This document shows positions 3,444 to 62,898 of a stretch of DNA of 64,000 nt, piece by piece. Position 1 is the stretch's first letter. Every line of letters starts with the position of its first letter. The notes below the pieces were generated by a model that saw nothing but the letters and a program-made list of their open reading frames with translations, searched no databases and was not told the DNA's origin. The position numbers and the translations under genes were made by a program. Origin of the DNA: Lysinibacillus fusiformis (lineage in GTDB: Bacteria > Bacillota > Bacilli > Bacillales_A > Planococcaceae); assembly GCF_016925635.1 (NCBI RefSeq), contig NZ_CP070490.1, positions 4,222,001-4,286,000 on the forward strand, written 5' to 3'.

Positions 3444-3549
3444 GATCGCTTTTTTTCAATTCAAGAGCGGTTTCTGCCTCAGAGAGAGCGGTGTTACTCA
3501 AATTGAGAGCGGTGTTGATCCTCGAGAGAGCGGTTAAGTGAGATCCATG
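3444..3549 (+). repeat. 21-bp-phased GAGCGG array, left half
   Basis: The core GAGCGG begins at 3465, 3486, 3507 and 3528, exactly 21 bases apart, with a degenerate copy (GATCGC) at 3444 in the same register. The 15-base spacers differ. The fifth core would start at 3549, where the IS element is inserted; the array resumes at 5075 in register. An open frame on the minus strand here (heptads beginning T-A-L) is a by-product of the 21-base period. Confidence 0.85.
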
Positions 3550-3698
3550 AGTCAAGTCCTAATTATTGTGTAAAATTCTATACAGAAGTTTTCAACCTAG
3601 CGTTTATTCATAGCTCTTGATTGGTGTAGCCAAATTTTGTTTATCCATTTAACAACACTACCATTTTTTTGCCCGTAACTTCCATGGGTTTATATCTC

Positions 3699-3756
3699 CA
3701 CAGGCAGTAAAGGCTGTCAAAGGCTCTTTTCACTTTGATAGCCTTTACTGCTTGTG
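3699..3756. repeat. Long hairpin inside the IS
   Basis: Two 24-base arms (3699-3722 and 3733-3756) pair completely as RNA in one orientation with only two G-U pairs, around a 10-base loop. It lies between the transposase stop and the left end of the IS. No T run follows on either strand, so it is not a standard terminator. A role in shielding the transposase from outside transcription is possible but is inference. Confidence 0.75.
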
Positions 3757-3797
3757 GAATACTCCATGAATGGAAGATACGTTGAAAAATACTTGTT

Positions 3798-4964
3798 CTA
3801 TTTGGTTAAACCTTTTTTCTTTGAGTAAATCGTTTCTTGATACTGCATTAAAATAGCACCTACCAATCGAAAGGCAGACTGCGTATTTGGAAAGATTCGT
3901 ATGACCTTTTCTCTTCTACGCACTTCTTGATTTAATCGTTCAAGTGAATTTGTACTTCGAATATGACAGCGTATATCTGCTGGATAATTCATGTATTGGA
4001 TGGTATCTTCGAAACCTTCATCTAAGATAGTAAGAGCTTTTTCGTACTTTGGATTATTTCCAAATTGGTCCATTAATTCATCCTTAAACTTTCGAATATC
4101 TTCAAGGGTTACGGCTTCAAAAATGCGCTTCATCATCATTCGGATATCGACGGAGTCTTTTTTAGGAAGCTTCTCGATAATATTTCGTTTAAAATGCACA
4201 TTACATCTTTGCCAAGCAGTGCCGATAAATTCACGCTGTATCGCTTTTTGAAGCCCTTGATGAGCATCTGAAATCACTAGTTGAGGTGATTGAAGTCCAC
4301 GTGATTTGAGTTGTTTAAAAAAAGAGCTCCAACTATCAAAACTTTCAACATGATCCACACTTAAACCGATAATTTCGCGTTTATTTTCTTCCGTAATGGC
4401 CGTAGCGATATAAACAGCTTTTGATACGACACGTTGATGTTCACGTACTTTTATGTACATGGCATCTACAAAAACAAAAGGATAATACATGGTGTTTAAT
4501 GGACGATTTGCCCATTCGTTCACGATCGGATCCAGTTTCTGTGTGAGTGAAGAAACAAAAGATTTAGAAACGGATTCGCCGCAAAGTTGTTCTACAATAT
4601 GTGTGACTTTTCGTGTAGAGACGCCATTAATAACCATCTCCAGCATAGAAAGAACAAATGCCTGATCACAACGTGCATACTTGTCAAAAACAGTAGGAGA
4701 AAATTCACCATGACGCGTTCTAGGAACTTTTAGTTTTATCTTACCAATACTCATAGTCAGTTCACGTTCATAGTACCCATTACGGTAATCACGACGCTCA
4801 TTAGAACGTTCATAGGCAGATGCATGAAGGAAGGCATCTCTTTCTTTTTCCATAAATTCATTTAAGACTAAAATAATAGCTGACTTTACAACAGCATCAA
4901 TAGTGGAATTCATAACGGAATCTTTTAAAAGATCCATGTCTAGGTTAAACTGTAACTGGGTCAT
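3798..4964 (-). CDS. IS256-family transposase
   Basis: A 388-residue DDE transposase of the mutator/IS256 type, full length for the family. Recognisable family features are the N-terminal NERRDYRNGYYERELTMS-like region, VPRTRHGEFSP, the FVDAMYIKVRE segment containing the first catalytic Asp, ISDAHQGL with the second Asp, WQRCNVHFKRN, and the C-terminal RSTNSLERLN segment carrying the catalytic Glu. The start at 4964 follows AGAGAGGTAGATTAAAA; a longer frame to 5051 runs into the terminal repeat. The gene is uninterrupted, so the element could be active. Confidence 0.95.
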   Translation of the reverse strand: MTQLQFNLDMDLLKDSVMNSTIDAVVKSAIILVLNEFMEKERDAFLHASAYERSNERRDYRNGYYERELTMSIGKIKLKVPRTRHGEFSPTVFDKYARCDQAFVLSMLEMVINGVSTRKVTHIVEQLCGESVSKSFVSSLTQKLDPIVNEWANRPLNTMYYPFVFVDAMYIKVREHQRVVSKAVYIATAITEENKREIIGLSVDHVESFDSWSSFFKQLKSRGLQSPQLVISDAHQGLQKAIQREFIGTAWQRCNVHFKRNIIEKLPKKDSVDIRMMMKRIFEAVTLEDIRKFKDELMDQFGNNPKYEKALTILDEGFEDTIQYMNYPADIRCHIRSTNSLERLNQEVRRREKVIRIFPNTQSAFRLVGAILMQYQETIYSKKKGLTK

Positions 4965-5067
4965 TTTTAATCTACCTCTCTTAAAATGTGTTCGTGGTTG
5001 AAAACATTCTAACCAAGAGGAGAGAAAATGACCCCTTTTCTTTTTACACAATTATATGGACTTAATC

Positions 5068-5122
5068 GATCCATGAGCGGCTTCGGCATCGAGATGAGCG
5101 GCTTATTCTCTAAGAAGAGCGC
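5068..5122 (+). repeat. 21-bp-phased GAGCGG array, right half
   Basis: Cores GAGCGG, GAGCGG and GAGCGC begin at 5075, 5096 and 5117. With the IS and one copy of GATCCATG removed, base 3549 joins 5076 and the seven cores plus one degenerate copy are all 21 bases apart. Confidence 0.85.
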
Positions 5123-5207
5123 CTTCATCCAAAAGAATAAAGTAGTGAAGGCCTTGTATGAAACTTTTTCCAAGTAAATTCGTAACTGATACAAAGGGGG
5201 ATAGATC

Positions 5208-5816: not shown

Positions 5817-7544
5817 TTATTGCATGACACGTTCTTTTTCTAAATAGGCAATTAAGTTATTAATGTAATAAAGCACATGCTTAGATGCCTCATCGACCTC
5901 TTTTAGATGCACATCGGCTTGCTCGATATGACCCGCTTTATGGGCTTCAGCGGCAAGCTTCGCTGATTCATGGACACGTAAGTGATAGCCATCTAACTCA
6001 TGATAGTCCTGTAAATGACCAAAACGTTCGACTGTACGAGGTGCTGTGTACCATTTGCCAAGTCGACAGTCTCGATGCGATGAAACATCGCTTGGATCAA
6101 CGTTTTCTAGGCCAAGGAACATGTTATAAATGCGCCATTTCCATAAAATATGATCCGCCTTCGATAATTGTAATAGGGCAATGGATGAAAGCTGAACATT
6201 ATTGTTAGCAATGAGATCATTACGGAAACGGTTAATTTCTTTCCCTAATAAATGAATATCGCTAGATGTATTATGACTATAATCACGAATATCTTCTTGT
6301 AAGCTTGAAATTTCGATCATTCTTGCTGAGACTTCATCAATTGCGGCTGCTTGCTCCTGGGAAATGGCTGCCGTATTTGTCACATCTAAATTAATACCTT
6401 CAATCGCCTGAACAATGGCATTTAATAATGGTAACGAATCTTTTGCTTCAACGGTTGCTTCTTTAATAATGGCTGTAGTATCAGTAATCGAGTTAGATAC
6501 ATCATTGGAATAACTCTTTAAATGATGGACATTCGCAGATACTTCACTTAGCGCAGATACCGTGTTTTCAGCAAGCTTTCTTACTTCCTGTGCAACAACC
6601 GCAAAGCCTTTCCCATGTTCACCAGCACGCGCAGCTTCAATGGAGGCATTCAGTGCGAGGAGGTTGGTTTGATCGGCGATTTGATTGATTAATGTGACAA
6701 CCTGCTCAATATCATTTACCCGTTTTTGCAATTCTGAAAATGATTCTACAATGGAAGTAAATGTTTCTTCCGTTTTAAAGATTTCCGATAAGGCATGCTC
6801 AATTGCGTTTTTCCCTTTCGTTGCATGGTCAACAGATTCGGTTGTTTTCTCAGATATATGAGAAGACATGCGCGCAACCTCATTGATAGAAGCGGCGATC
6901 TGTTCTGTAGCAGCTGTAGAGGATTGGATTTCTTCATTTTGCTTATCTAGGCTAAAAACTAAATCCTTCATGTACATAATTTTGGCATTGACATCCATTA
7001 AAGAGGATACTTCTCCTACCACATTTTCAATAATACGCTCCGTCAACACCTCCACCAATAACTCTTGATCGACATTGACAGCGGATTGGAATGATTTCAT
7101 ATATTGAAATGCTTTATTCGGCTTGATACCAAAATTGTATAAAATATATGTAGTAATGTAGAAGGCAAATTGGTTGAATACAACAATTAATTTACCAGGC
7201 TCGTATTGATGCTTGCGAAATAGATTGAAAAATTTGACAGTTTCGTCTACATAATGATCATCACGTGTTCCTAAGAAAAACTGTGTTAAATATTGATTAA
7301 TATTTTCTTCACTAATGGTTAATTGAGAGGTAGGGGATATCTCGCTTAAATAATGATGAAAAATGGCATTCATGGAAGGGGTAATATCTTTGAGCTTTTG
7401 ATAGAGTGCCTTTAAGTGCTCTTCATCCTGTGAAGAGAAATGGTTGAATGCCAGAGTTTTGTGAAATCGGCCTGTTGCATGTAAATCTGTACCACGTTTT
7501 AGTAGCTCTTCTAGCTCTGCTTTAGGTCGAATGCTTGAAAACAT
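5817..7544 (-). CDS. Globin-type soluble chemoreceptor with C-terminal CZB domain
   Basis: A 575-residue cytoplasmic methyl-accepting protein without membrane segments. The N-terminal 170 residues resemble the HemAT protoglobin sensor. Residues 200-440 are an MCP signalling coil, with the conserved hairpin tip [27 protein letters not shown] split around residue 290. Residues 460-570 match a chemoreceptor zinc-binding (CZB) domain: His465, Cys493 in CRLGKWY, His521 and His525. By my alignment the proximal haem histidine of HemAT is Phe109 here, so haem binding is doubtful. The start follows GGAGG. It should signal to CheA/CheW, sensing oxygen, redox or zinc/hypochlorite; the ligand is inferred only. 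Confidence 0.9.
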
Positions 7545-8055: not shown

Positions 8056-8119
8056 AATTCACATATTACAAAAAGTGATCGCGTTAGTTCGGTACTCTTT
8101 GTAATATGTGAATTTTTTT
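8056..8119 (+). promoter_or_regulatory. Terminator-like hairpin in the csp leader
   Basis: Arms 8056-8072 and 8098-8114 form a 17-bp perfect stem, extended inward by three pairs past one mismatch, followed by seven T. It lies 55 bases before the csp start, inside the predicted leader. It may act as an attenuator or cold-responsive RNA structure. Confidence 0.75.
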
Positions 8120-8174
8120 CATTCGCTGAAGAAATTACATATTGTTCACTTTTATTTTTTGGAGGTTTTCTTAA

Positions 8175-8375
8175 ATGAAACAAGGTACAGTAAAATGGTT
8201 TAACTCAGAAAAAGGTTTTGGATTCATCGAAGTTGAAGGTGAAAACGACGTATTCGTACACTTCTCAGCTATCCAAGGCGAAGGTTTCAAAACTCTTGAC
8301 GAAGGTCAAAAAGTGGAATTCGAAGTTGTAGATGGCAACCGCGGACCACAAGCTGCTAACGTAACTAAACTTTAA
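8175..8375 (+). CDS. Cold-shock protein (CspA/CspB family)
   Basis: A 66-residue single-domain OB-fold protein that binds single-stranded nucleic acid and melts RNA structure. RNP1 (KGFGFIEV, residues 13-20) and RNP2 (VFVHF, about 26-30) are intact, and length is exactly that of the family. GGAGG precedes the ATG by nine bases. Expression is expected to be controlled in part through the long structured leader described separately. The gene ends with its own terminator. Which of the usual several csp paralogues it represents cannot be told here. Confidence 0.97.
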
Positions 8376-8410
8376 TTCTCAGTAATTAAAACTACTTTCG
8401 TTAAACCCAA

Positions 8411-8440
8411 GACATCCTATGCAAATAGGATGTCTTTTTT
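8411..8440 (+). terminator. Terminator of csp
   Basis: A 9-bp perfect stem GACATCCTA / TAGGATGTC with a 6-base loop followed by six T. Confidence 0.9.
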
Positions 8441-8500
8441 GTATCATTTAAAAGTTTAAGGATTACAAATCCTATTTTAGGTTAAATATATAGTAGTGGC

Positions 8501-8938
8501 GGATAGCAGCGATAAAGTAGCGGTTAGAACTGCAAGAATGAGAGATAGCTGTAAAAGAAGCGGATAGCCTTGCAAAAGTGAAGGATAGCGCTATAAAAGT
8601 AGCGGTTAGAACTGTAAGAATGAGGGATCGCTGTAAAAGTAGCGGATAGCCTTGCGAAAGTGAAGGATAGCGCTATAAAAGTAGCGGTTAGAACTGTAGG
8701 AATGAGGGATCGCTGTAGAAGTAGCGGATAGCTTTGCAAAAGTGAAGGATAGCTCTACAAAAGTAGCGGATAGCCTTGCGAAAGTGAAGGATAGCGCTAT
8801 AAAAGTAGCGGTTAGAACTGTAGGAATGAGGGATCGCTGTAAAAGAAGCGGATAAGCTTGCAAAAGTGAAGGATAGCGCTATAAAAGTAGCGGTTAGAAC
8901 TGCAAGAATGAGGGATAGCTGTAATAGAAGCGAGTAGT
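8501..8938 (+). repeat. Tandem array with 82-bp units built of 21+21+21+19
   Basis: About 440 bases of intergenic DNA with a core close to GCGGATAGC. Core positions (GATAGC/GTTAGA/GATCGC) fall at 8502, 8523, 8544, 8563, 8584, 8605, 8626, 8645, 8666, 8687, 8708, 8727, 8748, 8769, 8790, 8811, 8832, 8851, 8872, 8893, 8914. Steps are 21 bases except a 19-base step after each GATCGC/GATAGCTG unit, giving 82-base higher-order units, with one 103-base unit carrying an extra 21-mer. Minus-strand open frames here are repeat artefacts. Confidence 0.9.
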
Positions 8939-8977
8939 CCCGCTAAAATACTGAATAGTTAGCATAGAAGGAGGCAG

Positions 8978-22043: not shown

Positions 22044-22059
22044 ATGTAAAAATCATAGA

Positions 22060-22299
22060 AAAATTCGATGAAAAAGAGAGTAATTGATGGGATGACTGGC
22101 AAGCGAGTTAGGGATGGTGTGAGCCTAATGCAGGGACCATGAATGAAGCGCACTTTGGAGAAGATTCTCGAACAAGTAGTAGAGAATAGCGGGGCGTCAC
22201 CTCGTTAACAATGGAAAGTGGTCATGTCACATGGCAACTAGAGTGGTACCACGGGATTATCATGCTCTCGTCTCTAATTTTAGAGGCGAGGGCTTTTTT
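22060..22299 (+). promoter_or_regulatory. T-box riboswitch (arginine)
   Basis: A 240-base leader ending in the T-box sequence AGAGTGGTACCACGG (22240-22254) and an intrinsic terminator (13-bp stem 22264-22276 / 22281-22293, then TTTTTT). The specifier is probably CGC at 22149-22151, followed by A as usual, which is an arginine codon and fits the downstream argS. Uncharged tRNA-Arg would pair with the specifier and the T-box bulge and favour the antiterminator. Confidence 0.9.
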
Positions 22300-62717: not shown

Positions 62718-62760
62718 GAAGTGTTTCTGAAGGCTGTTTGATCACTTCAAGTTGAAATCG

Positions 62761-62870
62761 GAGCGCTGTTGATTAAAGAATGAGCGCTTCTAGCTGGAAA
62801 GGGAGCGTTTTTGAATAAAGAGTGAGCGCTTTTAGCAAGAATGAGAGCGCTTTTGGATAAAGTATGAGCG
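62761..62870 (+). repeat. 21-bp-phased GAGCG array, third locus
   Basis: GAGCG begins at 62761, 62782, 62803, 62824, 62845 and 62866, all 21 bases apart, with variable A/T/G-rich spacers. It lies 43 bases after the GNAT gene stop. Confidence 0.88.
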
Positions 62871-62898
62871 ACTCCTGTCACATACCATAACAGCCTTT

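Follow-up and report, generated by a model that had tools for sequence, protein, structure and literature searches.

Phased GAGCG arrays in intergenic DNA of Lysinibacillus fusiformis and a possible reader of their core on one face of the helix

In a stretch of 64,000 nucleotides from Lysinibacillus fusiformis (contig NZ_CP070490.1, positions 4,222,001 to 4,286,000; here called the window), the short motif GAGCG recurs every 21 bp, the length of two helical turns, in an array that is split by an insertion element. This raises the question of whether such an array is simply the product of tandem duplication or whether its core is kept by something that reads it. In the open-licence literature, searched by titles and abstracts, no description of such arrays was found.

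The interrupted array and other features of the window

The features concerned are the following (window positions):

3444..3548, plus strand: left half of the array, with a degenerate GATCG at 3444 and GAGCG at 3465, 3486, 3507 and 3528
3542..3551, no strand: left copy of the target duplication GATCCATGAG (8-10 bp, end ambiguous)
3550..5067, minus strand: IS256-family insertion element dividing the array (left end 3550-3552)
5068..5077, no strand: right copy of the target duplication GATCCATGAG
5075..5137, plus strand: right half of the array, with GAGCG at 5075, 5096 and 5117
8487..8950, plus strand: array with another core (GGATAGC / AGCGG) and a looser pitch (TRF periods 21, 82, 124 and 206)
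62740..62886, plus strand: second GAGCG array at 21 bp, with GATCA at 62740 and GAGCG at 62761, 62782, 62803, 62824, 62845 and 62866

The seven GAGCG cores and the degenerate GATCG that a first-pass annotation of this DNA had reported for the split array were all found again; a further core that it had placed at 3549 proved to be the GAG of the target duplication and hence incomplete. Since this duplication flanks the IS256-family element, the two halves once formed a single array. The translation of 3798-4964 matches Transposase_mut (PF00872, E 2.3e-127), the element has similar inverted ends (read by eye), and the uninterrupted array sequence without it is present in a sister genome (G122, locus L192; genomes and loci are given as G and L numbers where they have to be told apart). 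The element is an accident outside the repeat system, and the array is the subject of our analysis. Ten pairs of GAGCG separated by 15 to 17 nucleotides were found in the window, every one of them with a gap of 16, where the expectation is 0.06 and 100 shuffles gave at most 1. The same pitch had been claimed for two other loci, which is correct for 62740-62886 with its six GAGCG, but applies only loosely to 8487-8950, where period 21 was detected at only 58% match beside better rows at 82, 124 and 206 and where the core is a different one; placing this array in the same family would be a guess. It lies directly after a match to the cspA thermoregulator (8106-8439, RF01766) and before a DUF1232 gene. 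In addition, the window contains a T-box leader (22059-22278, RF00230) and a chemoreceptor, by its look soluble, that combines protoglobin, MCP signalling and CZB zinc-binding domains (5817-7544).

A genome-wide family with a constrained core and pitch

The genome-wide search that the first-pass annotation had proposed returned 423 triplets of phased GAGCG cores (191 + 232) in the 5.01-Mb genome versus a single one (1 + 0) for the reversed pattern, and six phased cores occurred 76 + 121 times versus 0. In an even sample of the genome (20 x 20 kb, 400 kb), distances of 5-119 bp between GAGCG pairs peaked at 42 (36 pairs), 21 (32), 84 (31), 63 (26) and 105 bp (25), with at most 2 pairs at any other distance, and among all 1024 5-mers GAGCG and its complement had the largest excess at 21. 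The peak at 21 on which the annotation had staked its proposal is therefore present, together with its multiples. From the pattern matches and the even sample we obtained a map of 35 arrays, each with 4 to 55 units and nearly all of them intergenic, a set in which short arrays from unfetched parts of the genome are missing. Among 414 consecutive core distances in the arrays fetched, 311 were 21 bp and 388 were multiples of 21, while 9 were 20, 2 were 19 and 2 were 22, a spread that is somewhat understated because the arrays were found via multiples of 21. The phasing is thus predominant rather than exact, as had been stated. Single core-to-core steps were off by 1-2 bp, none of them measuring 18 or 24, and one longer gap was 66 (63 + 3); breaks of this size are easier to reconcile with helical phasing than with a reading frame.

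The constancy of the core was determined in 305 held-out centre units from 27 arrays, whose two neighbours carried GAGCG and whose own core was unselected. Exact GAGCG was present in 237 of these units, and the five core columns were constant at 0.98, 0.99, 0.89, 0.99 and 0.81, compared with 0.35-0.86 for the spacer columns. The sixth base was variable (G 166, C 113, A 23, T 3). Among 447 units the most common forms were GAGCG (379), GAGCA (29) and GATCA (27), so that the core of this genome can be written GA[G/T]C[G/A]. Likewise, adjacent units mismatched at rates of 0-0.21 in core columns but 0.20-0.89 in spacer columns (n = 244). Units 21 bp apart differed at 50-89% in 15 of the 16 spacer columns, whereas those 42 bp apart differed at only 11-31% per column (n = 214), their spacers being about 78% alike. 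Since neighbours at 42 bp resemble each other and neighbours at 21 bp do not, the arrays have an ABAB order, with 42-bp duplication at work. The spacers, described as free in the annotation, are indeed far less constrained than the core, but this likeness at 42 bp limits their freedom.

Comparison with sister genomes revealed large differences in unit number. The array at 4185079 has 55 units here, 4 in G122 and, in G033, about 2 that have decayed, and the array at 4199806 has 42 units here, 1 in G122 and 2 in G033; in the decayed units of G033 the cores had decayed too. G128 carries arrays with diverged spacers at both sites, and none was found there in G126 or G074. At the locus of the split array, G122 has a partly phased array, G128 a phased one with other spacers, and G033 (L191) four cores that are mostly out of phase, while 14 of the 17 sister intervals compared (30 loci fetched, 32 genomes searched) contained no array. 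The hisS-leader array (L053 4675-5139) differs from its sister orthologue by exactly one 21-bp unit. Such whole-unit differences, the ABAB order and the contrast between 1-4 units in sisters and 42 or 55 here show that tandem duplication is at work, and the original argument that the pattern is not the signature of simple tandem duplication alone finds no support in the form given. Two arrays could be aligned, hisS leader with G033 and thrS leader with G122, both chosen for intact cores in our genome, which introduces a mild bias; in these, 3 of 70 core positions differed, compared with 37 of 219 in spacers and 37 of 958 in flanks. Since the flanks consist of T-box and gene-start sequence, they are unfit as a neutral yardstick, and fourfold sites of genes in the syntenic block were used instead, of which 986 of 4088 and 994 of 4117 differed (24.1% in either sister). 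Core differed from spacer (Fisher p 0.009) and from fourfold sites (p 1.5e-5), and spacer from fourfold sites (p 0.013). The spacer rate is thus somewhat lower than that of fourfold sites and the core rate far lower, and the annotation's own counter-case, spacers as conserved as cores, was not what these two arrays displayed.

The two-turn pitch recurs in dozens of arrays and in several genera. In an order-wide search, four phased cores were found in 85 of 261 genomes; all 261 share one family label and represent 19 genera, 11 of them with matches; the reversed-core control, counted from the table, was non-zero in 27 of the 261. Within the family, 39 of 121 genomes contained a phased triplet. 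Named carriers among the matches listed include several Sporosarcina, Oceanobacillus arenosus, Virgibacillus oceani, Ornithinibacillus halophilus and Allobacillus saliphilus, in which core and pitch are the same and the spacers quite different. Many other matches listed fall in unrelated phyla and may be explained by chance or coding repeats. The letters beside the core vary by species, from TTTTG before GAGCGG to ATT or ACCY before GAGCG and TAT before GAGCGAATT. Because the genome searches used GAGCG, part of this core's universality comes from the search itself. A look that presupposed no core found 21/42-bp arrays with a CGCG[A/G]GTA core in G126, G063 and our own genome, and ACCTGAGCG-type units in G134; in our genome this second core family (CGCG[A/G]GTA, ATACCCGCG) occupies L043 18805-18930 and L050 18057-18272 at 21/42 bp. 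No 21-bp signal was detected in 160 kb of G074. For G142, G185 and G110, from three other genera, 80-kb samples gave a ratio of 1.3-1.5 at 21, and two of the three samples contained a few short arrays of period 21; since G110 is rich in GAGCG arrays elsewhere, 80 kb is too small to show absence.

Predicted curvature, replication polarity and genomic context

Curvature was predicted with a wedge model, a trinucleotide roll model and A-tract phasing and compared with controls in which spacer columns were permuted while core, composition and pitch were kept. On the classic test the wedge model returned GA4T4C as curved (0.525) and GT4A4C as straight (0.988). The arrays of our genome lay beyond the control mean in 34 (wedge), 35 (roll) and 31 (A-tract) of 35 cases and reached p<0.05 singly in 15, 11 and 18 of 35, respectively, although arrays are not independent of each other. 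Mean shortening in 28 arrays was 0.80 versus 0.92 after permutation and 0.94 in random DNA, and all five arrays from sister members of the genus exceeded controls in all three measures. The left half of the split array (3444..3548) was significantly shortened by the wedge model (0.767 versus 0.944 in column-permuted controls) and not significantly different from controls by roll or A-tract; the curvature of its right half (5075..5137) was not beyond controls. Arrays from other genera exceeded controls in 3 of 10 cases by wedge, 9 of 10 by roll and 6 of 10 by A-tract, with wedge values of 0.988 in Virgibacillus, 0.965 in Oceanobacillus and 0.941 in Ornithinibacillus beside 0.945 in random DNA of our genome. 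The curvature suggested by the annotation is thus predicted for this species but is not general: as modelled by wedges, static curvature characterizes this lineage, while a degree of helically phased roll may be more widespread. In the sister genome G134, an array (L255 591-1081) has period 41 rather than 42 and is uncurved in the wedge model, which speaks against coding and against strict phasing.

The spacers also have a polarity that follows replication. Judged by GC skew, the origin lies between 1.57 and 1.80 Mb and the terminus at 4.32-4.47 Mb. GAGCG is on the lagging strand in 26 arrays, and in every one of these the spacers contain 16-35% purine on the GAGCG strand and hence 65-84% on the leading strand; in the 9 arrays with GAGCG on the leading strand they contain 45-69% there, 7 of the 9 above half. 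The association of strand with spacer purine is complete at a cut of 0.4, picked after the values had been viewed (Fisher p 1.4e-8). The split array is nearly unbiased (0.45). As background, the leading strand has a purine content of 0.53 both in 300-bp segments and in noncoding stretches, and of 0.534 at fourfold sites of leading-strand genes. Purine excess on the leading strand of Firmicutes has been tied to PolC in some lineages (PMC4070872) and alternatively to genes avoiding Rho (PMC13323073); in our judgement neither predicts about 75% purine in intergenic repeats. One guess would be that arrays oriented the other way have been selectively lost. Gene direction was considered as a cause of the polarity. 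In co-directional intervals with leading-strand genes the purine-rich strand was the sense strand in 20 of 20 cases, where transcription and replication are not separable; of three intervals with lagging-strand genes, two follow replication and one, that of the almost unbiased split array, is opposite.

With genes called as ORFs of at least 100 aa, those mostly inside arrays being set aside and small genes being missed, array intervals were co-directional in 23 cases, convergent in 9 and divergent in 3; interval 4794307 has an ORF inside. The hisS array (gene identified by TIGR00442) lies between a T-box leader and the start codon and is presumably transcribed, whereas at thrS (TIGR00418) a T-box-like sequence was read by eye and is below the threshold of Rfam. 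A terminator hairpin and a promoter-like sequence, each recognized by eye, enclose the array at 4185079. Of the 35 arrays, 19 had a terminator-like hairpin within 200 bp, versus 55 of 144 control intergenic points, so that the position near terminators raised in the first-pass annotation amounts to a weak excess on which little can be built. The occurrence of arrays in every kind of intergenic context argues against one regulatory role.

Candidate explanations for the core and its pitch

Several known kinds of repeats resemble the arrays. REP/BIME elements are RAYT-associated, intergenic, present in many copies and in arrays, and lineage-specific, as the GAGCG arrays are apart from the RAYT, but they consist of palindromic hairpin units, while GAGCG units are direct repeats lacking a folding excess in 7 of 8 strands. 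The RAYT domain Y1_Tnp (PF01797) had no match in our genome, compared with 21 positive genomes of 32 in the genus, and an origin as RAYT/REP elements was set aside for the missing domain and the non-palindromic units. Iterons and plasmid centromeres (parC, iteron origins) are likewise direct repeats at about two helical turns, which a protein reads from one face; for the GAGCG arrays such reading is a suggestion, and they differ in occupying dozens of chromosomal loci and in having a 5-bp core with free spacers. Among seven window proteins scanned near two array loci, none was a Rep or Par protein. CRISPR arrays, in which identical repeats of at least 20 nt alternate with unique acquired spacers, share the alternation of a constant with a variable element at fixed pitch; here the repeat is 5 bp, and the 16-bp spacers recur as ABAB, about 78% alike at 42 bp rather than unique, and drift by point mutation. 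A-tract periodicity and curved DNA in bacterial chromosomes have been linked to nucleoid compaction (PMC3940949, PMC4060949) and are also helically phased, but the present arrays are discrete and built around a GC-rich core. Taken as curved-DNA elements by bend above composition-matched controls, they qualify in 34, 35 and 31 of 35 cases at home and in 3, 9 and 6 of 10 in other genera, 7 of the latter 10 being uncurved by wedge.

The explanation that we tentatively prefer, at a probability slightly short of even, is that a trans-acting reader recognizes the core in double-stranded DNA and that the cell makes use of it. Constraint on core and pitch rather than on spacers, transcripts or frame, together with cores running both ways relative to replication, points to double-stranded recognition from one face. 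This reading is favored by the 81-99% constancy of core columns in held-out units and the scarcity of core changes between sisters, by the recurrence of core and pitch across 85 of 261 genomes and in the named other genera, and by the indifference of arrays to location. It has to contend with the dispensability of the arrays (none in 14 of 17 sister intervals, no signal in 160 kb of G074), with the constant pitch that duplication alone yields within an array, with the cores in G033 that decayed along with their units or, at L191, were left over out of phase, and with an orthologue test confined to two arrays picked for intact cores. Moreover, the existence of two core families makes neither indispensable, and reversed-core arrays in 27 of 261 genomes imply that GAGCG is not the sole core. 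A substantial, if doubtful, possibility is that the arrays are non-functional or selfish minisatellites whose amplification, by slippage or by a nicking or recombination enzyme, needs the core while the cell makes no use of them. Biased amplification of this kind is a strong rival, and at the level of sequence an architectural protein and an amplifying enzyme would look alike. It would account for the extreme turnover (42 and 55 units here versus 1-2 and about 2-4 in G122 and G033), the ABAB homogenization, the near relatives without arrays and again the indifference to location. However, slippage by itself leaves unexplained why neighboring units have five core positions in common and little else, and why one core recurs at 35 mapped sites, and the one repeat-associated enzyme looked for, Y1_Tnp, has no match in our genome.

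The remaining alternatives appear considerably less probable. That selection acts on static curvature, with phased T/A tracts bending the DNA at two-turn pitch and GAGCG serving as a GC-rich half-turn, is in line with the excess of our arrays over permuted controls and with the roll and A-tract results from other genera, but only 11 to 18 of the 35 arrays, depending on the measure, were significant singly and the arrays are not independent, the wedge model curved only 3 of 10 arrays from other genera, and GAGCG in particular would not be required; we regard this as improbable. Even less probable is an element acting through RNA or termination, such as a Rho terminator that is polar and stops head-on transcription. 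In Bacillus, Rho reportedly terminates RNA rich in C and T (PMC13323073), which would suit the strand polarity of the pyrimidine-rich spacers; Rho is encoded in our genome, the hisS-leader array is presumably transcribed, and with a crude proxy (C-minus-G plus T score against genome percentiles) the co-directional RNA of all 35 arrays was at or below the 45.2th percentile. The head-on RNA, however, exceeded the 95th percentile in only 3 of 35 arrays (all 3 above the 99th), 27 of 35 lying between the 35th and 90th, which speaks, at the crude level of this proxy, against a class-wide Rho terminator; the array at 4185079 sits between a terminator and a promoter-like sequence, as read by eye, and Rho does not account for a core every 21 bp. 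RNA hairpins were set aside as well, no folding excess being present in 7 of 8 strands from 4 arrays (z -2.05 to +2.90, one strand at -2.05). An array of Chi-like recombination hotspots is very unlikely. The Bacillus Chi, AGCGG, is contained in GAGCGG, but the sixth base is free in the 305 units and cores run both ways relative to replication (26 lagging, 9 leading), so that the single orientation and fixed AGCGG of Chi (AddAB) sites are lacking; outside arrays the leading-strand excess of GAGCG is unremarkable (194 to 139, compared with 230 to 128 for AGCGG and ratios of 1.8-2.1 for three other 5-mers of like composition). Protein coding, with 21 nt as seven codons, is the least credible. ORFs of at least 60 aa overlap many arrays and two forward frames contain somewhat fewer stops than column shuffles (58 versus 73, 181 versus 195), but one reverse frame contains more (215 versus 185), stops occur in every frame in 17-24 of 27 arrays, the pitch breaks by 1-2 bp rather than 3, periods of 41 and 82 occur, and spacer divergence is 17% compared with 24% at fourfold sites; coding was set aside for its stops and pitch breaks.

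Under the preferred reading, in which the core is recognized in double-stranded DNA, the arrays would be fast-turnover intergenic minisatellites composed of two-helical-turn units. A putative sequence-specific protein would bind GAGCG, reaching neighboring cores from one face of the helix, and this recognition would keep core and pitch, while the spacers would drift at a nearly neutral rate and acquire the purine asymmetry set by replication. Each array would begin with a single core or a few, grow through duplications of 21 or 42 bp and then decay; the change between sisters would accordingly have run toward growth from few units. The binding scaffold envisaged in the annotation would fit this picture, with a reader that would be a protein, would bind cooperatively and would serve chromosome architecture rather than the control of single genes. 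A more specific version, which we consider unlikely, would be a chromosome-organizing system of the Bacillales, in which a putative protein polymerizes along one DNA face on GAGCG two turns apart, with several dozen replication-polar intergenic arrays turning over within a genus and an extended core that is species-specific, as though core and reader evolved together.

If the core has a reader, the arrays would be natural and cheap reporters of a new DNA-binding or amplification activity. If it has none, they would represent an unusual minisatellite whose mutational mechanism keeps a 5-bp core. They provide many natural replicates of repeat expansion, of the strand composition of spacers and of selection on two-turn phasing.
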